From Psychroflexus salarius (GTDB lineage: Bacteria; Bacteroidota; Bacteroidia; Flavobacteriales; Flavobacteriaceae): a DNA stretch of 64,000 nucleotides. The notes beneath the pieces were generated by a model. The model saw only the letters and a program-made list of their open reading frames with translations, made no database searches and had not been told where the DNA came from. Both the position numbers and the translations under genes were made by a program. Shown here in pieces: positions 26,410-37,453 of this stretch. Numbering within the stretch: the stretch's first letter is position 1; each line of letters begins with the position of its first letter. The DNA lies in contig NZ_FQTW01000001.1 of NCBI RefSeq assembly GCF_900129035.1, positions 248,001 to 312,000 of the forward strand. The letters are read 5' to 3'.

Positions 26410-26453
26410 AATTGTATTAATAAATAAGATAATATCTTGTTTAGTAATTTTAA

Positions 26454-26469
26454 TTAAGCAAATCTTAAG
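26454..26469 (+). promoter_or_regulatory. TTAAG-N6-TTAAG direct repeat (putative response-regulator box 1)
   Basis: TTAAG at 26454-26458 and 26465-26469 repeats with an 11-bp period, the spacing of OmpR-family half-sites. It ends 21 bases before the -7 box of the metal-efflux operon, so it covers the place of the missing -33 element, which suggests activation. The same element lies at 34470-34485. Confidence 0.6.
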
Positions 26470-26490
26470 CTAAGGAATTTAAAATAATAG

Positions 26491-26498
26491 TACATTTG
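26491..26498 (+). promoter_or_regulatory. -7 promoter box of the metal-efflux operon
   Basis: TACATTTG matches TAnnTTTG exactly and ends three bases before the first ATG (26502). A second ATG follows at 26505. Transcription would start at or near the start codon, so the mRNA is probably leaderless. No -33 TTG is present. Confidence 0.55.
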
Positions 26499-26501
26499 TA
26501 A

Positions 26502-26885
26502 ATGATGAAGTCTTTATCAACATTTGCTTTAACAGTTTTAGTTAGCTTGCAATCTATCGGAATTTCAGCAGCTAATGTACTGAATTTGTCAAATTTTTAC
26601 GAACACTACGAACTTCATCAAGCGGAGACTAATTGCGATTTTTCAGAATTTTTAGATCTTCATTACGGCAGCCAAAAAGCTCAACATGAAGACGAACATA
26701 AAGAACATGAAAATCTTCCGTTTCAAGAGTGCCATCATCTTTCACATAATTTTTATGTTGAACCTTTACATCCCAACGATTTGGGCATAAGAATTCCTGT
26801 TGAAGTTATTCAGCATAACTTCAATTATTGTCTACTGTTTAATTCATTACGTGAAACTGAAATTTTACAACCACCCAAAATTTAA
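26502..26885 (+). CDS. Small secreted His-rich protein, first gene of metal-efflux operon
   Basis: This 127-residue protein has a signal peptide (about 1-23, ending ISAAN). The mature part is rich in His and acidic residues (HEDEHKEHEN about residues 63-72, then CHH), a pattern of soft metal binding. I recognise no named family. Comparable small His-rich proteins often precede CzcA/CusA genes in Bacteroidota. A periplasmic metal-binding or sensing role is inferred from composition and context. Starts at 26502 and 26505 differ by one Met. The pump gene follows after 44 bases. Confidence 0.7.
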   Translation: MMKSLSTFALTVLVSLQSIGISAANVLNLSNFYEHYELHQAETNCDFSEFLDLHYGSQKAQHEDEHKEHENLPFQECHHLSHNFYVEPLHPNDLGIRIPVEVIQHNFNYCLLFNSLRETEILQPPKI

Positions 26886-26929
26886 ACATTTGTTATCAAC
26901 TTATGTTTAATCTTTCAATTTAAAATTTC

Positions 26930-29900
26930 ATGTTATCAAAACTCATAGAATTTAGTTTAAAATCTAAATTCTTAATTATTTTGTTTGTTATAGGTTTAGT
27001 GGGCTTTGGCTCCTATTCCCTATTCAAGGTTTCAATTGGTGCGGTTCCCGACATTACCAATAATCAAGTGCAAGTCATCACCACATCGCGTAATTTATCA
27101 ACGGCTGATGTTGAGCAATTTATCACTTATCCCGTCGAATTAGAAATGGCTAATTTGCCGGGCGTTAAAGAAATTAGATCGGTCTCTAAATTTGGACTAT
27201 CGGTAGTTACGATTGTGTTTGAAGATGATTTAGGCACGTATTTACCACGCCAACTCATTGCGGAAAAATTAAAAACAGCTGCCGAAAAAATTCCTGCTAG
27301 TTTTGGAACGCCACAAATGGGACCTATTACAACTGGTTTAGGCGAAATTTACCAATACACCTTAGAAACCAAACCTGGCTTTGAAAACGATTATGATGCC
27401 ACAGAGTTGCGTACCATCCAAGATTGGATTGTTAAGCGCCAGCTTTCAGGGATTCCTGGCGTGGTTGAAATAAATACTTGGGGCGGTTTTTTAAAGGAAT
27501 ACGAGGTTAGTATAAACACGCAACAACTGCAAGCTAAAGGGATTAGCATTAATGAGTTGTTTTTAGCATTAGAAAATAATAACTCCATCGCTGGCGGAAG
27601 CTATATTGAAAAAAATGATGAAGCCTATTTTATACGTGGTGAAGGTCTCGTTTCAAGTCTTGAAGATATTGAAAATATTGTGGTGACAGTTCGAGACAAT
27701 CAACCTATTTATATTAAAGATATTGCTGAAGTTGGCTTTGGACATGCAAGACGATTTGGCGCAATTACTGGAAATGGTGAAGGTGAAAAAGTCTTAGGTC
27801 AAGTCATGATGCTCAAAGATGCTGACTCAAAACGAGTGATCGATGCTGTTAAAACTAGAATTTCAGAAATTGAAGACAGTCTGCCAGAAGGTGTTTACAT
27901 TAATGGCTTTTTAGATCGCTCTGAACTTATTGGCCGAACAACTTCTACCATTGCCGAAAATTTAATTTTAGGGTTTCTTGTGGTCGCCTTTATTGTTATT
28001 GTTTTAATTGGTGATTGGCGAGCTGGTTTAGTGATTTCTTCTATTATTCCGTTGAGTTTTTTAAGCGCTATTAGCTTAATGTATGTGTTTGGTGTAGATG
28101 CCAATTTAATGAGTTTAGGTGCTTTAGATTTTGGAATCATCATAGATGGAGCCGTCATTATAGTGGAGTTTGTGGCCTTTAAATTATGGCAACGTTCTAA
28201 CGAATTTAAAGGAAAGACTTCAACTGAAATTGTAAAACTAAAAGATAAAATTACATTTAATGGTGCATCCAAAATGCTAAACTCAGCTATTTTCGGACAA
28301 TTTATAATTTTAATTGTTTTTATTCCCATTTTATCATTAAGTGGTGTTGAAGGCAAGATGTTTAGACCGATGGCATTAACCTTCAGCTTTGCACTAATTG
28401 GTGCCATGATTTTGTGTTTTACTTGGGTTCCTGTCGCTTGTAGCTTAATTTTAAAACCCAATGCTAAAACCTTTACATTTTCAACACGATTAATAGATGG
28501 TATAAAAAAAGCCTATTTACCTTCTATAAAATGGGCTTTAAACCATACAAAAGTTGTGTTGGTTTCTGCCATTTTATTGGTCATCATAGGTGTTTTTACA
28601 TTCTCGAAAATGGGTGGCGAATTTGTGCCTACTTTAGATGAAGGAGATTTTGTAATTCAACCTATTTTAAAAACAGGTAAGTCATTAAAAAGTACCGTTG
28701 AACGCACTACAAAAATTGAAGGAATTTTATTAGAAGAATTCCCAGAAGTTACACAAGTGGTTACACGAATTGGTGCGGCTGAAGTCCCAACAGACCCAAT
28801 GTCTATGCAAGATTCTGATGTCATTGTGCGTTTAAAGCCTAAATCTGAATGGACAAGTGCTGACACGAAAGAAGAGTTGGCTCAAAAAATTAAAGAAGCC
28901 TTAGCCGTGATTCCTGGAATGGATTTAGAATTTACACAACCTATTGAAATGCGTTTTAATGAATTGATTACTGGCGTTCGATCAGACATTGCCATTAAGA
29001 TTTTTGGAGAAGATTTAGATGTTCTAACGCAAAAAGGAAACGAAATTCAAGAATTGATTGAAAATGTAGAAGGTGCGGCTGATATTTCGGTTGAAAAAAT
29101 TGTTGGCTTGCCCCAACTTTCTGTTGAATACAAGCGAAATAAAATTGCACGCTATGGTCTAAATATCAAAGCCATAAATTCAGTGATCACTGCTGGATTT
29201 GCTGGTAAAGCAACAGGCGTTGTTTTTGAAGGTGAAAAACGATTTGATTTAGTGGTTAGATTACAAAAATCTCAACGACAAGGTATTGAAGACTTAAGAA
29301 GTTTAATGATTGACACCCCAAATTCTGGTAAAATTCCGCTTGATGAAGTTGCTGAAATTAACTATGATAAAGGACCTGCCAAAATTTCAAGAGACAATAC
29401 CAAACGCCGTATTGTGGTTGGTGTAAATGTAAGAAATAGAGATTTAGCTTCAGTCGTTGCCGATATTCAAAAGCTCGTTAAAAACAATATCAACTTACCT
29501 GTAGGTTACACCATCAATTATGGTGGACAATTTGAAAATCTTGAAAGTGCAAAAGCTCGTTTAAAAATTGCCGTGCCTATTGCCTTAATTTTAATTTATA
29601 TCATGCTATTTTTTGCGTTAAAAAAACACCGTGACGCCTTATTGATTTTTACAGCCATTCCATTTTCTGCAATTGGTGGTATATTTTTACTGTGGTTACG
29701 TGATATGCCATTTAGTATATCGGCAGGTGTTGGTTTTATTGCTTTATTTGGTATTGCTGTGCTTAATGGTATTATTTTAGTTGAATATTTTAAAGATATT
29801 TTAAAAACACACGACAAGTTAAGTTTACAACACATTATTGATGCGACACAAGATCGCCTACGTGCGGTTTTACTCACAGCAAGTTCAACGGCATTAGGAT

Positions 29901-31252
29901 TTTTACCAATGGCTATTTCAACTGGAGCTGGCGCCGAAGTTCAACGTCCATTAGCTACGGTAGTTATTGGTGGTTTAGTCACTTCTACCCTACTAACTTT
30001 AATTGTTTTACCGGTTTTATATGCTATGAATAATAAAACACCAAAATTAAAATTAAATAGTCCATTAAGCATTTTAGTGATTTTACTGTTAGGAACTTCG
30101 ATATCTAGTTATGCACAAGACGGTGAATTTGAAGCGCTCAAACAAAAGATGTTAGAGAACAATCATAAGCTAAAATCAGCACAACTTCTATCTGAAAGTA
30201 CTAAAGCTGCCGAAGGACAAGCCTTTACGTTCAATAAAATCCAAATCTATCAAAATTATGACCAATCGGAAGCCGATCCTATTGCAAGTCAACCTTTATA
30301 TCAATGGGGAATTGTGCAACAGTTTGATTTTCCGACGGTGTATGCGAACAAGTTGAAGTTGAACAAAGTTAAAACTGAGCTTGCAGAAACCCAACTTAGC
30401 ATCACTGAATTAAAGCAAATTAAAGCCCTTCAAAATAACTATCAAAACTTTTTAGAAGCGCGAGAAAAGCTTAGAGTTTATGATAGTATTTATGAAGTTT
30501 ATAAAGCGTTCTCGCGAATGGCAAAACGCAAATTTGAGGAAGGTGAATCTAATTATTTAGAAAAAATCACAGCTGAATCTAAAGCCAGTCAAATTGAAAT
30601 TGATCGCAGCCAGCTTCAACAAGATTTAGCGAATAGTAAACTTGCAATTCAAGCCTTATTACAAGTTGAAGAACCTTTAATTTTAAAAGGTCGTCAGCTT
30701 AAAAAGCTAGAATTAAAGTCTGTTTTAAAGCAAAATGAAAATTTAAGTATTTCAGCTTTAACCATCGATCAAAAAATGGCTGAGCAAACTTCTAAATTAG
30801 CTAAACACCAACTATTGCCTGGGATTTCAGCCAGTTATTTTATCAGAAGTAATTCAGCTATAGACCAAAACTTTAACGGTTATCAAATCGGCTTAAATGT
30901 ACCATTATTGTTTTTTGGTGATCGATCTAAAATTAAATCGGCACAACTAAAAGCTCGCGCAAAAGAAGCCGAACTTACCGATGCTAAAATAGCGCTTAAA
31001 AAAGGTCAAGAACAACTTATTGAATTGCTTAAGGTTCAAAGCAATACTTTAACTAATTACGAAAATCATCAGCTTAAAATGGCCATTGAAATTTTAAATA
31101 CAGCTAAATTGAGTTATAAAGCTGGTGAAATTGACTTTTTTAGATATGTGCAAAGTATTGAACAAGCACAACGCATTAAACTTGATTATTTAAGCAAATT
31201 GCGTGACTATAATCAAACCATTATTCAATTAAATTACTTCTTATTAAATTAA
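26930..31252 (+). CDS. CusA/CzcA heavy-metal RND pump fused to a TolC-family outer-membrane factor
   Basis: At 1440 residues the protein is longer than the usual 1040 because two proteins are joined in frame. Residues about 1-1035 form an RND transporter of the heavy-metal class with GALDFGIIIDGAVIIVE in TM4 (the HME acidic signature) and 12 spans. Residues 1044-1062 form a hydrophobic stretch ending SSYA-Q, like a signal peptide. Residues about 1065-1440 are a TolC/CusC-type factor with long helices. The product pumps metal cations such as Cu, Ag, Zn or Co; the cation is not decidable. The adaptor follows after four bases. Confidence 0.93.
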   Translation: MLSKLIEFSLKSKFLIILFVIGLVGFGSYSLFKVSIGAVPDITNNQVQVITTSRNLSTADVEQFITYPVELEMANLPGVKEIRSVSKFGLSVVTIVFEDDLGTYLPRQLIAEKLKTAAEKIPASFGTPQMGPITTGLGEIYQYTLETKPGFENDYDATELRTIQDWIVKRQLSGIPGVVEINTWGGFLKEYEVSINTQQLQAKGISINELFLALENNNSIAGGSYIEKNDEAYFIRGEGLVSSLEDIENIVVTVRDNQPIYIKDIAEVGFGHARRFGAITGNGEGEKVLGQVMMLKDADSKRVIDAVKTRISEIEDSLPEGVYINGFLDRSELIGRTTSTIAENLILGFLVVAFIVIVLIGDWRAGLVISSIIPLSFLSAISLMYVFGVDANLMSLGALDFGIIIDGAVIIVEFVAFKLWQRSNEFKGKTSTEIVKLKDKITFNGASKMLNSAIFGQFIILIVFIPILSLSGVEGKMFRPMALTFSFALIGAMILCFTWVPVACSLILKPNAKTFTFSTRLIDGIKKAYLPSIKWALNHTKVVLVSAILLVIIGVFTFSKMGGEFVPTLDEGDFVIQPILKTGKSLKSTVERTTKIEGILLEEFPEVTQVVTRIGAAEVPTDPMSMQDSDVIVRLKPKSEWTSADTKEELAQKIKEALAVIPGMDLEFTQPIEMRFNELITGVRSDIAIKIFGEDLDVLTQKGNEIQELIENVEGAADISVEKIVGLPQLSVEYKRNKIARYGLNIKAINSVITAGFAGKATGVVFEGEKRFDLVVRLQKSQRQGIEDLRSLMIDTPNSGKIPLDEVAEINYDKGPAKISRDNTKRRIVVGVNVRNRDLASVVADIQKLVKNNINLPVGYTINYGGQFENLESAKARLKIAVPIALILIYIMLFFALKKHRDALLIFTAIPFSAIGGIFLLWLRDMPFSISAGVGFIALFGIAVLNGIILVEYFKDILKTHDKLSLQHIIDATQDRLRAVLLTASSTALGFLPMAISTGAGAEVQRPLATVVIGGLVTSTLLTLIVLPVLYAMNNKTPKLKLNSPLSILVILLLGTSISSYAQDGEFEALKQKMLENNHKLKSAQLLSESTKAAEGQAFTFNKIQIYQNYDQSEADPIASQPLYQWGIVQQFDFPTVYANKLKLNKVKTELAETQLSITELKQIKALQNNYQNFLEAREKLRVYDSIYEVYKAFSRMAKRKFEEGESNYLEKITAESKASQIEIDRSQLQQDLANSKLAIQALLQVEEPLILKGRQLKKLELKSVLKQNENLSISALTIDQKMAEQTSKLAKHQLLPGISASYFIRSNSAIDQNFNGYQIGLNVPLLFFGDRSKIKSAQLKARAKEAELTDAKIALKKGQEQLIELLKVQSNTLTNYENHQLKMAIEILNTAKLSYKAGEIDFFRYVQSIEQAQRIKLDYLSKLRDYNQTIIQLNYFLLN

Positions 31253-31256
31253 ACCT

Positions 31257-32408
31257 ATGAAACCTTCTATTATACTATTGTTATTAATTTTTGCAAACTT
31301 AAACAGCTCTTGTGGTGACTCTTCGGAAACTTCAACCGAAGATAAAAACAAGTCAGATGCTGGCCATATTACTCTCAGTCATCAACAATTCAAGTCAGCC
31401 GAACTTCAATTAGGAACACCTGAATTCAAAAAATTTTCAGAACAATTTGAAGTTACAGGTATTATTGATGTGCCACCAAAAAACAGAGCTTCAGTAACTG
31501 CTTATTTTGATGGTTATGTGACCCAAACTGAATTGCTTGTGGGTGATGAAGTTAAAAAAGGTGATGTTTTGGTGAAGTTAAAACATCCTAACTTTATCAA
31601 AATTCAGCAAAACTATGTTGAAGCCTTAAGCAATTTAGAGTACTTAAAATCTGAATTTGACCGTAAACAAAGCCTTTACGAAGATGATGTGATTGCACAA
31701 AAAGTATTTCAATCAACTAAAAACCAATTTTTAAATGCCAAAGCACAATTGGCATCAGCAAAAGAGCAAATAAAGTTGATGAACCTTAGTCCTGCACAAG
31801 TCGCTCAAGGAAATTTCACTTCAGAAATTAATATTTTAGCGCCTATAAGTGGTAAAGTTTCAAAACTAAATGTGGCGCAAGGTAAATTTATAGCCAAATC
31901 TGATATGATTATGGAAATTTTAGATGTAGATCATGTACATTTAGAATTAGAAGTGTTTGAGAAAGATCTTTTAAACATTAATAAAGGTGACACTTTAAGC
32001 TTTATGATTCCTGAAGTAACTAACCAAAAGTTTGAAGCTTATGTGCGATTAATTGGTGCTGAAATTAGTCAAAACAGACGTGTTCGTGTACATGCACATC
32101 CTATAAATGAGAATGTAAACTTTAAAGTTGGTATGTTTGTAAATGCTAGTCTTAAAACTAATGAGAAAAAGATCATTGCTTTGCCGGAAGAAGCTTTTAC
32201 AAGTCTAGATGATCAAACCTTTATTTTACAACTTGATGAAAAAACATCTAATACATATCAATTTTCAAAGTTAAAAATAAAAAGTTCTGTGCCTCAAAAT
32301 GGCTATAAACCAATACTGAATGCTGATGAACTGAATTTAAAAGCACAATATTTAACTAAAGGCGTTTTTGATTTAATTACCAATAGTGGCGGCGGACATA
32401 GTCATTAA
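31257..32408 (+). CDS. RND efflux periplasmic adaptor (CusB/CzcB type) lipoprotein
   Basis: This 383-residue membrane-fusion protein has a signal ending in a lipobox-like NSSC (Cys19), so it is probably lipid-anchored. The barrel-sandwich halves are ASVTAYFDGYVTQTELLVGDEVKKGDVLVK and ILAPISGKVSKLNVAQGKFI, and between them lies a coiled-coil hairpin (about 115-185). The C-terminal tail SGGGHSH may bind metal. It links the pump with the outer-membrane part encoded in the preceding fusion gene. It lies six bases before the response-regulator gene. Confidence 0.92.
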   Translation: MKPSIILLLLIFANLNSSCGDSSETSTEDKNKSDAGHITLSHQQFKSAELQLGTPEFKKFSEQFEVTGIIDVPPKNRASVTAYFDGYVTQTELLVGDEVKKGDVLVKLKHPNFIKIQQNYVEALSNLEYLKSEFDRKQSLYEDDVIAQKVFQSTKNQFLNAKAQLASAKEQIKLMNLSPAQVAQGNFTSEINILAPISGKVSKLNVAQGKFIAKSDMIMEILDVDHVHLELEVFEKDLLNINKGDTLSFMIPEVTNQKFEAYVRLIGAEISQNRRVRVHAHPINENVNFKVGMFVNASLKTNEKKIIALPEEAFTSLDDQTFILQLDEKTSNTYQFSKLKIKSSVPQNGYKPILNADELNLKAQYLTKGVFDLITNSGGGHSH

Positions 32409-32413
32409 TAATT

Positions 32414-33091
32414 ATGAATAAATCAGATTTTAATATATTAATTGCTGAAGATCAACTAGATATTGCAAAATTTCTTAAGCAAGGACTTACAGAAGAAGGC
32501 TATCAATGTAAAGTTGTTAGAAATGGGCAAGCGGTCTTAGAATTTATGAAGTCTGAAAACATCAGTTTAATTTTACTTGACTGGATGATGCCTAAACTTA
32601 AAGGCATTGATGTTTGTAGGCAATTAAGAGCTGAAAACATTTTAACGCCTATCATTTTTTTAACCGCAAAAGATACAGTCGAAGATACTATAGAAGGCTT
32701 AAAAAGTGGTGCTAATGATTACATCAAGAAACCCTTTAATTTTGATGAATTATTAGCGAGAATTGAAGCTCATTTAAGAATTCATTTTAAAATCGACGAA
32801 ATCCTTAACATTGGTGATATTTCAATAAACATAAGTAAACACGAAATTACTAAGGCTGATGAAATGATTAACCTGACCGAAAAAGAATTTAATTTTTTAG
32901 TCCATTTAGTTAAAAATAAAAATCAAGTTTGTGATCGACAATCTATTATAGAGCAAGTTTGGGATATTCATTTTGATTATGATACTGGTGTTCTTGACGT
33001 TTACATGAATGCCATTAGAAAAAAATTAAACCTCCAAAAAAATGAACTTATTAAAACAGTTCGTGGCATTGGTTTTATAGCTCAAGAATGA
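32414..33091 (+). CDS. OmpR-family response regulator (CusR-like)
   Basis: In this 225-residue protein the receiver domain has phospho-acceptor Asp56 in LILLDWMMP, acidic pocket AEDQ (12-13) and Lys in YIKKPF. The C-terminal winged helix (about 125-225) has EKEFNFLVHLV and the RGIGF hairpin. Its gene ends on the ATGA overlap with the histidine kinase. It most likely activates the flanking operons; the shared 11-bp-phased TTAAG repeat upstream of both is the natural binding candidate. Metal specificity is inferred from the neighbouring pump. Confidence 0.93.
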   Translation: MNKSDFNILIAEDQLDIAKFLKQGLTEEGYQCKVVRNGQAVLEFMKSENISLILLDWMMPKLKGIDVCRQLRAENILTPIIFLTAKDTVEDTIEGLKSGANDYIKKPFNFDELLARIEAHLRIHFKIDEILNIGDISINISKHEITKADEMINLTEKEFNFLVHLVKNKNQVCDRQSIIEQVWDIHFDYDTGVLDVYMNAIRKKLNLQKNELIKTVRGIGFIAQE

Positions 33092-34473
33092 AGCTATCCA
33101 TCAAAAATAGAATTGCACTTTATTCAGTCATCGGCATTGCTAGCATTAGTTTATTGGTATTTTTGAGTATTTATTTTACTGTAAAAAAAACCGTTTACAA
33201 TGAGATTGATGATGATTTAAAGTTTGAAGCTAAAAAGCATGTTTTTGAAGTTGTTCAAAAAAAAGACACGCTGTACTTTGCTTACAAAGATGAATGGCTT
33301 GAACGCGAACATGTAGAAATTGAAGTCTACCCATTGTATGTTGAACTTTTTGACAAAAATGGTCTAAGCTTAGACAAATCCCCAAACTTAAAATCTCGTT
33401 CACTTCATGTCAATCCAGAAATTACAAATTCATTTATTTCAAACACAAACCTTGACAATCAAGCATTAAGGCAAATTCAAATTCCGCTTCGTCAGGATGC
33501 AGCGATAAATGGTTTTATAAGTATTGCCGTACCTTTAGGTGATGCAAAATTACTGATTGAAACACTACAGCAAACATTACTAATCATCTACCCTATTTTA
33601 TTAATTATCACTTTTTTTACCTCTAGACTAATTTCTAGAATTACCATAAAACCAGTTACACGCATTGCAAAAACAGTTGAAGATATTAACACGAACGATT
33701 TAACTAAACGCGTAACTAAAATGAGTAATGGTGATGAGTTAGAAACCTTATCTAATGCCATAAATGATTTTCTTGACCGAATTGACGCTGCTATTAAAAG
33801 AGAAAAACAATTTACAGCAGATGCTTCACATCAATTAAGAACACCATTAGCAGTAATTAAAGGAAATTTAGAGGTCCTAATTAGAAAAAATCGCCAACCT
33901 GAAGAGTATGTTGAAGTCATAAAAGCCAATATTATCAAAATAGATGAAATGTCTAGTGCTGTCGAAAAGCTTCTGATTTTAGCTCGATTAAACAGTAATT
34001 CTAATCAGAATATTGAACTTAAAAGCTTGAATGTTTATCAACTAATCGAATCGATATTAACCAACTATAAACTTCATATTTTAGAAAAGCAATTAGCCAT
34101 TTCAATAAGTAATTCTAAACATATCATACTCAACTCAAATAAAATATACCTGAGTTTCATCCTAGATAATTTAATTTCAAATGCTATTAAATATGCAGAT
34201 ACCAATAGCGAAATTAAAGTTACAATTGAAGAATTATCAAGTAAATTTCAAATAAAGGTTTGTAATACAGGTCCTAAAATTCCGCCGACTGAAATCAACG
34301 AAATTTTCAACCCGTTTTTTAGAAATAAAAATCATGAAACAAAACAAGAAGGCTACGGCTTAGGCCTTGCCATAGTTGCAAAAGCAGCAGAATTATTGAA
34401 CATAAAAGTAGAGGTTTCTTCTAATAAACTCACCTGTTTTACACTTACAATTCCGAAAAAAAGCCAAACTTAA
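33088..34473 (+). CDS. Sensor histidine kinase (CusS-like)
   Basis: This 461-residue kinase has two membrane spans (about 9-31 and 163-184) flanking a periplasmic sensor of about 130 residues. It continues with HAMP (about 184-236), HisKA with phospho-accepting His248 in ADASHQLRTPLA, and HATPase with N box LDNLISNAIKYA and GYGLGLAIV. The start overlaps the response regulator by four bases. It presumably senses periplasmic metal for the adjacent pump. The stop codon overlaps the TTAAG repeat at 34470. Confidence 0.93.
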   Translation: MKLSIKNRIALYSVIGIASISLLVFLSIYFTVKKTVYNEIDDDLKFEAKKHVFEVVQKKDTLYFAYKDEWLEREHVEIEVYPLYVELFDKNGLSLDKSPNLKSRSLHVNPEITNSFISNTNLDNQALRQIQIPLRQDAAINGFISIAVPLGDAKLLIETLQQTLLIIYPILLIITFFTSRLISRITIKPVTRIAKTVEDINTNDLTKRVTKMSNGDELETLSNAINDFLDRIDAAIKREKQFTADASHQLRTPLAVIKGNLEVLIRKNRQPEEYVEVIKANIIKIDEMSSAVEKLLILARLNSNSNQNIELKSLNVYQLIESILTNYKLHILEKQLAISISNSKHIILNSNKIYLSFILDNLISNAIKYADTNSEIKVTIEELSSKFQIKVCNTGPKIPPTEINEIFNPFFRNKNHETKQEGYGLGLAIVAKAAELLNIKVEVSSNKLTCFTLTIPKKSQT

Positions 34474-34485
34474 GATTCACTTAAG
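34470..34485 (+). promoter_or_regulatory. TTAAG-N6-TTAAG direct repeat (putative response-regulator box 2)
   Basis: TTAAG at 34470-34474 and 34481-34485; the fuller repeat is CTTAAGAT twice with an 11-bp period (34469 and 34480). It sits between the histidine-kinase stop and the thioredoxin ATG (34548), like box 1 at the efflux operon. Downstream -7 candidates are imperfect: TAGATTTTG at 34499-34507 and TTATTTTG at 34523-34530. Confidence 0.6.
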
Positions 34486-34547
34486 ATATAAAGCAAAATA
34501 GATTTTGAATGCTTTTTTGATGTTATTTTGATGTAAATAATAATGTC

Positions 34548-34976
34548 ATGAAGTTATCACTTTTAATGATTAGTTTGTCTTTAAGCCTTTCTACTTATGC
34601 TCAAAACTGGGTTTATGATTTTAACGAAGCTAAAATTCTAGCTGAACAAGAAAACAAACAAATCCTACTTGTCTTTTCCGGTTCAGATTGGTGTGCGCCT
34701 TGCATCAAGCTAGATCGCCAAATATGGCAAACCAAAGTGTTTAAAAATCACGCAAAAGAAAATTTAGTGCTTTTAAAGGCCGATTTTCCAAAGCGTAAAA
34801 AAAATCAACTTCCAAAAATTCAGCAAGATAAAAACAAGGCTTTAGCCGAAACTTACAACACTAAAGGCTACTTTCCATTTGTAGTTTTACTTGATGCTGA
34901 TGGTCAAGTCATGAATCAACTTGGGTATAAAAATCTAACGCCAACTAAATACATCGAAGCCATCTATGGTCAATAA
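34548..34976 (+). CDS. Secreted thioredoxin-like protein
   Basis: This 142-residue protein has a signal peptide (about 1-18, ending STYAQ). A thioredoxin fold follows with active site CAPC in FSGSDWCAPCIKLD (about 44-57), a later cis-Pro segment GYFPFVVLLD, and no extra domains. The SDWC form resembles Thioredoxin_7/DUF255-type envelope proteins rather than cytoplasmic TrxA. It may reduce or form disulphides in its operon partners, such as the cysteine pair of the DUF4266 lipoprotein. Its 3' end overlaps apbE by 11 bases. Confidence 0.87.
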   Translation: MKLSLLMISLSLSLSTYAQNWVYDFNEAKILAEQENKQILLVFSGSDWCAPCIKLDRQIWQTKVFKNHAKENLVLLKADFPKRKKNQLPKIQQDKNKALAETYNTKGYFPFVVLLDADGQVMNQLGYKNLTPTKYIEAIYGQ

Positions 34977-35949
34977 ATTAATTATTCTACTAGGTTTTGT
35001 ATGGATGTTTAACCTTCAAGGTCAGTCAATTTTTAAGCGTGAAATGGGACTCATGGGATGCCAATTTGATATTACGGTTGTTGCTAGTTCTCAAAATGAA
35101 GCTAATAGTTACATTGACATAGCTGTTGAAGAAATACAGCGAATTGAAACTATGATATCGTCATGGAAAACTAACTCGCAAACTTCAGCTGTTAACCGAA
35201 ATGCAGGCCTAAAACCTGTAAAAGTAGATGATGAATTGTTTCAACTCATTAAACGGTCGATTCAACTTTCAACTATTACAGATGGCGCCTTTGATATCAG
35301 TTTTGCTTCAATAGACCATATTTGGAATTTTAATAAGCAAGAAACCACAATGCCTGATCAAGCTAAACTTTTGTCTTCGGTTGAAGCCATTGGTTATGAA
35401 CATATTCAATTAGATGAAGCTAACTCTACTGTTTTTCTTACCAAAAAAGGAATGAAAATTGGCTTTGGTGCTATAGGCAAAGGCTATGCCGCTGATAAAG
35501 CCAAAGAACTTCTCATAAAAAAAGGGGTTAAATCTGGCATCATCAATGCCTCTGGCGATATGAATACTTGGGGAAAAAAACCAGATGGTAACGCTTGGAA
35601 AGTGGCTATTACCAACCCGATGAATAAAACCAAAAGTTATGGCCTATTTGAAATTAATAACCAAGCTGTAGTTACCTCAGGAAATTACGAGAAATATGTT
35701 CTTATTAACGGTGAGCGCTACTCACATATTATTGACCCTAGAACAGGTCAACCAACAAAAGGTATTTTAAGTGTTAGCGTTTTTGCGCCTAAAGCCGAAA
35801 TGGCCGATGCGCTAGCAACATCCATTTTTGTAATGGGAGTCGATGTTGGTTTAAACCTCATTAATCAACTTCCAAATGTCGAGGCAATTATAGTTAAAAG
35901 TAATGGCAGTTTAGCCACTTCAAACCAAATAAATATTACATCAAAATGA
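34966..35949 (+). CDS. apbE: FAD:protein FMN transferase (ApbE)
   Basis: The 327-residue enzyme attaches FMN to Ser/Thr of periplasmic proteins. The hydrophobic N-terminus (1-19, ending LQGQ) is a signal peptide. Conserved parts are MGLMGCQFDIT, ISSWKTNSQTSAVNRNAG, the FAD-binding FGAIGKGYAADKA (about 167-179), NASGDMNTWGK, and metal-binding DALATSIFVMG near residue 285. No NqrC or RnfG is encoded in the window, so its target may be an operon partner; DUF3570 has an SGAS motif. It overlaps the neighbours on both sides (11 and four bases). Confidence 0.93.
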   Translation: MVNKLIILLGFVWMFNLQGQSIFKREMGLMGCQFDITVVASSQNEANSYIDIAVEEIQRIETMISSWKTNSQTSAVNRNAGLKPVKVDDELFQLIKRSIQLSTITDGAFDISFASIDHIWNFNKQETTMPDQAKLLSSVEAIGYEHIQLDEANSTVFLTKKGMKIGFGAIGKGYAADKAKELLIKKGVKSGIINASGDMNTWGKKPDGNAWKVAITNPMNKTKSYGLFEINNQAVVTSGNYEKYVLINGERYSHIIDPRTGQPTKGILSVSVFAPKAEMADALATSIFVMGVDVGLNLINQLPNVEAIIVKSNGSLATSNQINITSK

Positions 35950-36158
35950 TAAAAACAACTGTTAAACTATCTCTAATCAGCTTATTCTTTACGTCTTGTG
36001 TAGCGGTTAAAGAATATGAGAAGATAAATATTAACGATCCAGACATGGTCTTATCTGAACGCCAATTAGACAAATACAAGTCGACTTTTCAATCTTATCG
36101 TGAAGCAGCAGCAGGCGCCAATGGCGGTAAAACTGGTGGTGGTTGTGGTTGTAATTAA
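35946..36158 (+). CDS. DUF4266 lipoprotein with Cys-Gly-Cys tail
   Basis: This 70-residue lipoprotein has lipobox FFTSC (Cys18), then DPDMVLSERQLDKYKSTFQSYREAAAGANGG and a C-terminal GGGCGCN. This matches the DUF4266 family, whose function is not known. The two C-terminal cysteines (Cys67 and Cys69) could bind metal or form a redox pair; that is inference. The gene starts on the ATGA overlap with apbE and ends 11 bases before DUF3570. Confidence 0.85.
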   Translation: MIKTTVKLSLISLFFTSCVAVKEYEKININDPDMVLSERQLDKYKSTFQSYREAAAGANGGKTGGGCGCN

Positions 36159-36169
36159 ATTAAACAAAA

Positions 36170-37453
36170 ATGAAAAATTATCTTTTATATAGCCTAATTG
36201 CATTAGTTAGCTTAGCAAGCTTTGCACAAGAAGAAACTGAGTATAAAAAACGTGTGCTAGAATCGACTGAAGTCAATTTACTGTCTAGTTATTACACACA
36301 AGACGGCGAAAATGCAGCTGTTACTGGTGGTCGAGGTACAGAAGAATTAAGCGATATTGCACCATCAATAAACGTAGCGATTCCTTTAAATGATGACGAT
36401 ATTTTAGCAATTGACGCGACTGTTTCAGCCTATACCTCAGCTTCATCAAGTAACATAAATCCGTTTGATGGTAATCAAGCAGCTGATCCTTTTGTTGCTT
36501 CTTCTGGTGCTTCTGAAAAAGACACATGGTTTGGCTTAACGGCGTCTTACTCACATTCGTCAGATGACAGAAACACCATTATAAGTGCAAATGTATCTTT
36601 TGCAAACGAGTATGATTATACTTCATTTGGCTTTGGAGGAAGTCTAACCAAATTATTCAATCAAAAAAATACTGAAATACAGCTTAAAGCTAATATTTAT
36701 TTAGACCAATGGAATCCTCAATACCCAATTGAGTTTAGGGAAGGCTTCAATTTAAATGAATATAACTACGAGGGTGAAATTAACTTTTCACCAAACTATT
36801 CGAATTTTGAGTCCCTAAATAGAAATTCATATAGTTTAGGCTTAAGTGTTTCTCAGATACTCTCAAAATCAATACAAACCTCTTTTATAGCCGATTTTGT
36901 AGTACAAGATGGCCTACTTTCAACGCCACATCAACGGGTTTATTTTGGAGATATTGAAGACTCGATGATAGAAAACTTTATGCTTGGCAATGACGTAGAA
37001 CGCTTGCCAAATTCAAGAACAAAATTAGCCATAGGTAACCGTTCGAGTTTTTACATCAATCAAAATTTTGTTGTAAGAAGTTACTACCGCTATTATACTG
37101 ATAATTGGGGAATAGATTCACACACATTTAAAGTTGAATTACCCATCAAGTTTGGTTTAAATTACACCTTATATCCTAGCTATCGTTATTACACGCAAAC
37201 TCAGACTGACTACTTTGGTGAGTTTAATACCATATCGTCAACCGATGAATTTTACACCTCAGATTACGATTTAGCGTCTTATAATGCTAATCAATATGGT
37301 TTAGGCTTTAAATATTACGATCCTTTAAATTCATTTAAAATTGGTGGTTTTGGATTAAAAAGCATACAAATAGAATATAACTATTATGAGCGAACCACGC
37401 AAAATTTTAATGCAAATATAAGCTCGTTAGGATTTACGTTTATAGCTGATTAG
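36170..37453 (+). CDS. DUF3570 outer-membrane beta-barrel protein
   Basis: This 427-residue protein has a signal peptide (about 1-19, ending SFAQE) and the DUF3570 N-terminal sequence STEVNLLSSYYTQDGENAAV. The remainder is alternating aromatic strands ending in Phe, consistent with an outer-membrane barrel. SSGASEKD holds SGAS at residues 112-115, similar to the Ser/Thr-Gly-Ala-Ser/Thr site modified by ApbE. The gene is last in the Trx-ApbE-DUF4266 operon and is followed by a terminator. Whether it carries covalent FMN is unproven. Confidence 0.85.
   Translation: MKNYLLYSLIALVSLASFAQEETEYKKRVLESTEVNLLSSYYTQDGENAAVTGGRGTEELSDIAPSINVAIPLNDDDILAIDATVSAYTSASSSNINPFDGNQAADPFVASSGASEKDTWFGLTASYSHSSDDRNTIISANVSFANEYDYTSFGFGGSLTKLFNQKNTEIQLKANIYLDQWNPQYPIEFREGFNLNEYNYEGEINFSPNYSNFESLNRNSYSLGLSVSQILSKSIQTSFIADFVVQDGLLSTPHQRVYFGDIEDSMIENFMLGNDVERLPNSRTKLAIGNRSSFYINQNFVVRSYYRYYTDNWGIDSHTFKVELPIKFGLNYTLYPSYRYYTQTQTDYFGEFNTISSTDEFYTSDYDLASYNANQYGLGFKYYDPLNSFKIGGFGLKSIQIEYNYYERTTQNFNANISSLGFTFIAD

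Follow-up and report, generated by a model that had tools for sequence, protein, structure and literature searches.

A PmrA-type direct repeat as the putative shared operator of a metal-efflux operon and a DUF3570 flavinylation cassette in Psychroflexus

Do two copies of one direct repeat, standing before two neighbouring operons, mark the operators of the regulator encoded between them? The question is raised by a 64,000-nucleotide stretch of the Psychroflexus salarius genome (contig NZ_FQTW01000001.1, positions 248,001 to 312,000; hereafter the window). In it the repeat TTAAG-N6-TTAAG stands upstream of a heavy-metal efflux operon that also encodes an OmpR-family response regulator and a sensor kinase, and again at the junction between the kinase gene and an operon for thioredoxin (Trx), ApbE, DUF4266 and DUF3570 proteins. 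A preliminary description, made from the letters alone, had proposed one OmpR-type operator linking the two operons. Both repeats are where it had placed them, TTAAGCAAATCTTAAG at 26454-26469 (box 1) and TTAAGATTCACTTAAG at 34470-34485 (box 2), and the gene between them does encode an OmpR-family regulator, with Response_reg and Trans_reg_C domains. The proposed link is strongly supported by conservation at orthologous loci and, on the Trx side, by co-occurrence with the regulator. On this comparative evidence both repeats are very likely operators of that regulator.

The bare word is no rarer than chance, in the window or in the genome, and it is the orthologous loci that decide the matter. 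TTAAG-N6-TTAAG gave three strand-matches (two sites) in 64 kb against 0.84 expected, and three were reached by 5 of 100 shuffles. The earlier estimate of fewer than one such repeat by chance thus holds as a figure, while the weight placed on it does not. Site 2 carries a fuller word, CTTAAG-N5-CTTAAG, at 34469-34485, readable on both strands, and box 1 is one mismatch away from it. Genome-wide this fuller word occurs at two places, site 2 and a tandem-repeat stretch amid polysaccharide-type genes (by eye), with no control matches.

In the regulator-bearing genomes of the genus the fuller word is invariant. Among 60 genomes, including our own, a clear ortholog of the regulator was found in our own and ten others, all Psychroflexus (58–77% identity), and in all 11 an exact CTTAAG-N5-CTTAAG stands just past the kinase. 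The detected genes keep the same order in nine of the 11. The pump box has 0–2 mismatches in seven (our own included; six of the ten others) and three mismatches in one. The bare repeat was absent from all 18 less similar regulator loci (36–45% identity), searched for up to 1.5 kb on each side. Absence from orthologous loci had been named beforehand as a ground for rejecting the proposal; instead the fuller word is kept in every regulator-bearing genome of the genus and recurs in loci of other genera.

For those other genera we took the best 80 of 569 confirmed candidates from a scan with the regulator, all from Bacteroidota (Flavobacterium, Hymenobacter, Confluentibacter, Flavilitoribacter and others); three of these named loci, L045-L047, are genomes G003, G014 and G012 of the genus set again. 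The 17-bp word has 27 exact and 61 one-mismatch places in the 80 loci, against no exact and 1–3 one-mismatch places when the gap is 3, 4, 6 or 7 instead of 5. Some control words also count high (CAATTG-N6-CAATTG, 1 exact and 50 one-mismatch; CAATTG-N3, 26; CAATTG-N7, 1 and 25; GAATTC-N6, 23), so promoter windows were tested separately, plain counting alone being no proof. With 200-bp windows and up to two mismatches, the box was found before Trx in 22/25, before the pump in 26/30 and in 35/55 regulator-first windows; the corresponding shuffle means were 0.7, 0.5 and 0.75. Other gaps from 1 to 10 reached at most 4 (Trx), 10 (pump) and 9 (regulator), and 57 of 2400 random windows from the named loci, true boxes included, came within two mismatches. 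When similar windows were collapsed to 95, the box remained in 22/24 Trx, 20/24 pump and 28/47 regulator-first windows.

An unguided scan of every 5-mer in direct repeat, periods 7–20, ranked CTTAA at period 11 first, in 42 of the 95 collapsed windows, with TTAAG at period 11 as runner-up (26/95); five single-letter shuffles reached 5 at most. Several boxes have an additional half-site 11 bp upstream. Many Flavobacterium show the order box, Trx-ApbE-DUF4266-DUF3570-regulator-kinase, box, pump; others have the box in front of the regulator gene. Two direct half-sites at a period of about 11 bp, with an OmpR-family regulator encoded nearby, are what would be expected of a tandem operator of the OmpR/PhoB family. 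One named locus, L057, holds a Bacteroidota-type cassette, regulator and kinase (41–59% identity) with an exact box, although its record title gives a metagenome bin of Klebsiella pneumoniae; it is probably a mis-binned contig.

The distance from box to promoter depends on the operon. Taking TAnnTTTG as the −7 consensus, we found 21 bp from the end of the pump box to this element in 7/7 Psychroflexus boxes of at most two mismatches and in 14/26 at named loci. The Trx box ends 37–38 bp before a −7 element in 8/9 Psychroflexus (relaxed −7) and in 8 of 22 named-locus Trx boxes (exact −7), and regulator-first boxes lie 55–57 bp away in 19/35. Most Psychroflexus pump boxes have a spacer that is the Trx-box spacer in reverse complement, so that the box faces the pump and Trx promoters in opposite senses. 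The pump promoter has a −7 element without a −33 element, as had been described: no TTG occurs anywhere between box 1 and TACATTTG.

Does the box follow the regulator? An order-wide sample of 296 genomes contained the regulator in 30 (E 1e-60, our own included) and ApbE matches in 64; the matches listed comprised 30 loci, of which the 26 where a Trx gene was recognised were counted and the other four were not. The regulator was present in 12 of the 26, and in 9 of these the box preceded Trx (up to two mismatches, within 300 bp); of the 14 without the regulator, none had the box there (Fisher 7e-5). Excluding our own genome gave 8/11 versus 0/14 (Fisher 1.5e-4). A box at no more than one mismatch lay within 1.5 kb at 23 of 29 order-wide regulator loci and at none of 42 loci of other OmpR-type regulators, seven of which had a two-mismatch place. 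The cassette behaves likewise in the genus: DUF4266 was present in 9/11 genomes with the regulator versus 0/16 without (Fisher 1.2e-5; 27 genomes, some incomplete).

Several observations weigh against reading both repeats as operators of this regulator. Genome-wide, the bare word is about as frequent as its reversed control (26 versus 21 strand-matches), a result that the preliminary description had listed as counting against its own proposal. The box is missing before Trx in 3/12 regulator-bearing genomes of the order-wide sample, from 6/29 regulator loci there at the threshold given, and from 20/55 regulator-first windows at up to two mismatches; the pump box has at least four mismatches in 3/11 regulator-bearing genomes of the genus. 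Two genomes, G003 and G017, keep a perfect box 2 though the Trx cassette is gone (a DUF3570 remnant persists in G003). Because cassette and regulator genes often lie side by side, their co-loss is partly physical, and the species compared are related and hence not independent. In the window the kinase frame runs into box 2 and takes up its first five bases; a five-base overlap with the kinase stop codon is seen in 7 of the 11 genomes, so box 2 is in part also coding. Finally, nine Psychroflexus genomes have the pump and no regulator ortholog, yet retain a pump box, at 0, 1, 1, 1, 2, 2, 3, 3 and 3 mismatches.

These nine genomes bear on a distinctly unlikely alternative, in which the pump box is the site of another regulator, for instance one of two further OmpR-family regulators, acting alone or alongside the local one. 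Two such regulators are present in each of 11 genus genomes checked; the nine hold only two core regulators of 32–37% identity, plus one more weak match in G008. Their pump box is perfect in G001, and five of them keep the 21-bp distance to −7 (the others show 19, 22 and 32 bp once each, and in one no −7 was found). Against another binder stands a tree of 22 pumps, including two outgroup rows without regulator, on which regulator presence requires six changes; the regulator thus comes and goes repeatedly. Loss seems recent in the sister pairs G001/G016 and G020/G000. A natural deletion in the sister genome G020 (L207:7562-8655) joins regulator residues 1–32 almost directly to DUF3570 residues 99–427; the kinase, box 2, Trx, ApbE and DUF4266 are gone and the pump box is retained. 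Mismatches in the regulator-less genomes rise loosely with branch length, from 0 at 0.019 (G001) and 1 at 0.048 (G008) to 3 at 0.10–0.14 (G005, G021, G026), except that G004, G013 and G024, on a shared branch of 0.13, have just 1–2. The core regulators themselves have no box at one mismatch or less within 1.5 kb, and ten more distant pumps (nine non-genus and G023) without a close ortholog, some with 36–44% matches, have no box below four mismatches.

A chance repeat, or mere A+T-rich promoter composition, accords with the near-expected count in the window and the control-like count in the genome; conservation, spacing and the specificity for period 11 in independent loci make it barely credible. 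It is highly improbable, too, that the repeat is a hairpin or a coding constraint and no operator. The hexamers of box 2 can pair as a 6-bp stem (−3.8 kcal/mol in RNA), and a CTTAAG-armed hairpin does exist elsewhere in relatives (below); yet pairing in box 2 gives a short stem that the flanks do not lengthen, and the fold of box 1 is weak (−1.4). The overlap with the kinase stop codon speaks for coding constraint, but box 2 lies outside the kinase frame in 4/11 genus genomes, and in other genera the box precedes different first genes and one-mismatch forms are common. The rival that keeps the same regulator at both boxes, and has it mainly repress one operon or act on both in a dual manner, is unlikely, though less so than the others. 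The pump and Trx promoters differ in box orientation and in distance to −7, and exact boxes lie 66–94 bp from −7 elements before TonB-dependent receptor genes in four Flavobacterium genomes. At the pump, however, the box occupies the −33 place with no −33 present, the usual activator-dependent layout of OmpR-family activators.

Returning to operators of the local regulator, we infer the following course of signal, binding and activation. The kinase would sense a metal in the periplasm, or envelope stress that a metal causes there, and phosphorylate the regulator, which would then bind as a head-to-tail dimer to the half-sites with their 11-bp period. The pump box, 21 bp upstream of −7, would replace the missing −33 and should let the bound regulator activate from a −41.5-like position; since regulator and kinase genes belong to the pump operon, their expression should rise as well. 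At the Trx-ApbE-DUF4266-DUF3570 promoter, where the box lies 16–17 bp farther upstream and points the other way, the same regulator would turn on a flavin-based electron-transfer cassette.

The features concerned are collected in Table 1. The RND pump and the outer-membrane efflux protein form a single chain of 1440 residues. For the small His-rich protein, searches of Pfam and NCBIfam gave no match. The second operon has the makeup of a DUF3570 cassette: Thioredoxin_7, ApbE, a DUF4266 protein with CXC and a DUF3570 protein with [S/T]GA[S/T], a motif found at least once in 30/34 DUF3570 proteins compared and once in that of the window.

Table 1. Putative regulatory sites and genes of the two operons (window positions).
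Feature	Position	Strand	Details
Box 1, putative operator of the pump operon	26453..26469	-	minus strand CTTAAGATTTGCTTAAT; plus strand ATTAAGCAAATCTTAAG
-7 promoter element	26491..26498	+	TACATTTG; 21 bp past box 1
Small His-rich protein, gene 1 of the pump operon	26502..26885	+	signal-peptide-like start (by eye)
CzcA/CusA-family heavy-metal RND pump fused to outer-membrane efflux (OEP) domain	26930..31252	+	ACR_tran, OEP, TIGR00914
Periplasmic adaptor, CusB/CzcB type	31257..32408	+	Pfam/NCBIfam profile matches
OmpR-family response regulator, candidate reader of both boxes	32414..33091	+	Response_reg, Trans_reg_C
Sensor histidine kinase	33088..34473	+	EWxEREH motif in predicted periplasmic part
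Box 2, putative operator of the thioredoxin operon	34469..34485	+	CTTAAGATTCACTTAAG
Relaxed -7 element	34523..34530	+	TTATTTTG; 37 bp past box 2
Thioredoxin_7 protein	34548..34976	+	Pfam
ApbE flavin transferase	34966..35949	+	Pfam
DUF4266 small lipoprotein-like protein	35946..36158	+	C-terminal CGC; Pfam and sequence
DUF3570 protein	36170..37453	+	one SGAS flavinylation-type motif; Pfam and sequence

The DNA-reading helix of the regulator is nearly invariant, with W183, I185, F187, Y189, D195, V196, N199, R202, K203 and K204 in 81/81 regulators. A regulator-like remnant (40% over residues 96–214) was seen on the minus strand right after the adaptor gene in G013, which has no intact regulator (L210:9420-9746). 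The kinase has conserved E47, H51, E54 and EWxEREH in a predicted periplasmic part at about residues 47–75. Conservation is 73–85/89 per position of EWxEREH and 88/89 for E47 (three genomes counted twice); these residues are possible metal ligands.

Which metal is concerned is suggested by the pump. At the positions of the CusA methionine triad (M573/M623/M672) it has Q, D628 and E678 (alignment read by eye), and so departs from a copper/silver RND pump. At the places of the acidic residues of ZneA (D602, E610, D654, D658) it has D, D, M and E. Its fourth helix reads DFGIIIDGAVIIVE, which resembles the CzcA motif, and its best solved relative is ZneA by a small margin (605 versus 590 bits). 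Copper and silver, which the preliminary description had put forward with zinc, are less likely because the pump carries CzcA/ZneA-like residues; by sequence, divalent metals appear likelier.

We also looked for the word elsewhere. In 15 named-locus genomes the pattern CTTAANNTTNGCTTAAG has ten places in seven genomes, with no control places. Five are at a regulator or cassette; the other five are upstream of the TonB-dependent receptor genes mentioned above (L241, L248, L242, L243 and L245, around position 1501), three identified by Pfam and two by like starts. One receptor type follows a 2-oxo acid dehydrogenase E2-like gene (by eye) and one is beside a DUF4198 gene. Exact boxes elsewhere in the genus were inspected in part, in 14 stretches (some 6–13 kb each) and five places of our own genome; the word CTTAAGGGAAACTTAAG, carried by ten genomes, was inspected in G001 only, and the sites in G059, G033 and G055 were left out. 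An rpsB/tsf hairpin, two sites inside reading frames (one of them tilS-like) and intergenic stretches rich in repeats were set aside (gene names by eye).

The hairpin reads AATCGCTTAAG-N5-CTTAAGCGATT and lies between rpsB-like and tsf-like genes in several Psychroflexus (L151:5517, L152:6577, L153:6123, L160:2133, L147:6328, L159:6720). With its CTTAAG arms it folds at −17.0 kcal/mol in L152, and is likely an RNA hairpin unrelated to the operator. Our own genome has an intergenic tandem 11-bp repeat, TTAAGTATGGC, beside polysaccharide-type genes (by eye; contig C19, L041:7919-7945), and similar repeats occur in other relatives. G014 has a second pump-type box (L035:5099-5115), 21 bp before a −7 element; the next clear frame, about 200 bp downstream, encodes a small membrane-type protein without a Pfam match.

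What is new here is the link of metal export with the functionally unexplained DUF3570 flavinylation cassette, for which a putative operator in common with a metal pump offers a definite context, the periplasmic sensing of metal stress. Workers on Bacteroidota gain a predicted operator with its promoter geometry. A more tentative thought, possible though somewhat doubtful, is that Bacteroidota have a widespread metal/envelope-stress regulon with a PmrA-type operator and a non-PmrA regulator, whose core targets are metal export and the DUF3570 cassette, the cassette serving metal handling or the repair of metal-damaged envelope thiols. In the portion of open-licence search results seen, no paper described the box from Bacteroidota or connected DUF3570 to metal efflux, and a single one came up by the name DUF3570; excerpts of a paper on copper in a Flavobacteriaceae species (PMC11213822) name CusR-like regulators, and no such box was found in them.

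Among known systems, the cassette itself matches DsbD-type flavinylation clusters, with the identical four genes Thioredoxin_7, ApbE, DUF4266 and DUF3570 (PMC8238504). That paper describes hundreds of such gene clusters, calls their purpose uncertain, treats the DUF3570 family as flavinylated with two motifs, and notes a metal link in 25 clusters with a VIT1 iron transporter. Excerpts of it name no metal-efflux regulator, whereas the window cassette has the putative operator of a metal-type two-component system; a DsbD_TM protein is encoded elsewhere in our genome, not at the cassette. The two-component genes resemble CzcRS/CopRS/CusRS, in that TIGR01387 (regulator) and TIGR01386 (kinase) are their best-scoring models and they share an operon with a heavy-metal RND pump. 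Neither score reaches its cut-off, however (195.4 of 279.2 bits for the regulator, 196.5 of 292.55 for the kinase), and the MtrA model does equally well on the regulator. Another direct repeat with an 11-bp period is the Helicobacter pylori HP1043/HsrA box, TTTAAG-N5-TTTAAG, though translation genes are among its targets (PMC5253667) and HP1043 is an orphan regulator said to act without phosphorylation (PMC8345958).

The closest likeness is to PmrA/BasR. Salmonella PmrA boxes consist of CTTAAG, a 5-bp gap and XTTAAT, bound head-to-tail, and Klebsiella pneumoniae PmrA likewise binds head-to-tail on CTTAAT and CCTAAG half-sites (PMC3973317). Minus-strand box 1 fits CTTAAG-N5-XTTAAT fully, and box 2 all but the last letter. 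In E. coli K-12 we found CTTAAGGTTCACTTAAT before pmrR and CTTAAGGTTGGCTTAAT before eptA, which agree with window site 2 and minus-strand site 1 in 15 of 17 letters each. PmrB, too, senses metals, Fe3+ and Al3+ (PMC1804205). By contrast, the window regulator is no ortholog of PmrA, with 68 positions identical to BasR. Of the six PmrA contact residues named in PMC4660055 it keeps T187, V192 and R210, and has G, N and A for N188, H195 and N196. The PmrA model scores 154 bits against a cut-off of 330, and the CzcR/CopR-type model 195, level with MtrA (NCBIfam). Because of this lower model score and the three changed contacts, we do not take the window regulator for PmrA. Its predicted targets in the window also differ, being a metal pump and a flavinylation cassette rather than lipid A enzymes. 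In some Flavobacterium the box lies between the regulator or cassette and a divergent gene for a sulfatase-superfamily membrane protein (L246:1595-3016 by Pfam; L247, L240 and L244 by like starts). Judged by its letters, the box is of the known PmrA/BasR type and no new kind of site; the word would work like a PmrA-type operator and need not belong to the PmrA regulon. The locus poses a clean question: how has an almost identical word come to be read, in distant phyla, by regulators whose contact residues differ in part?

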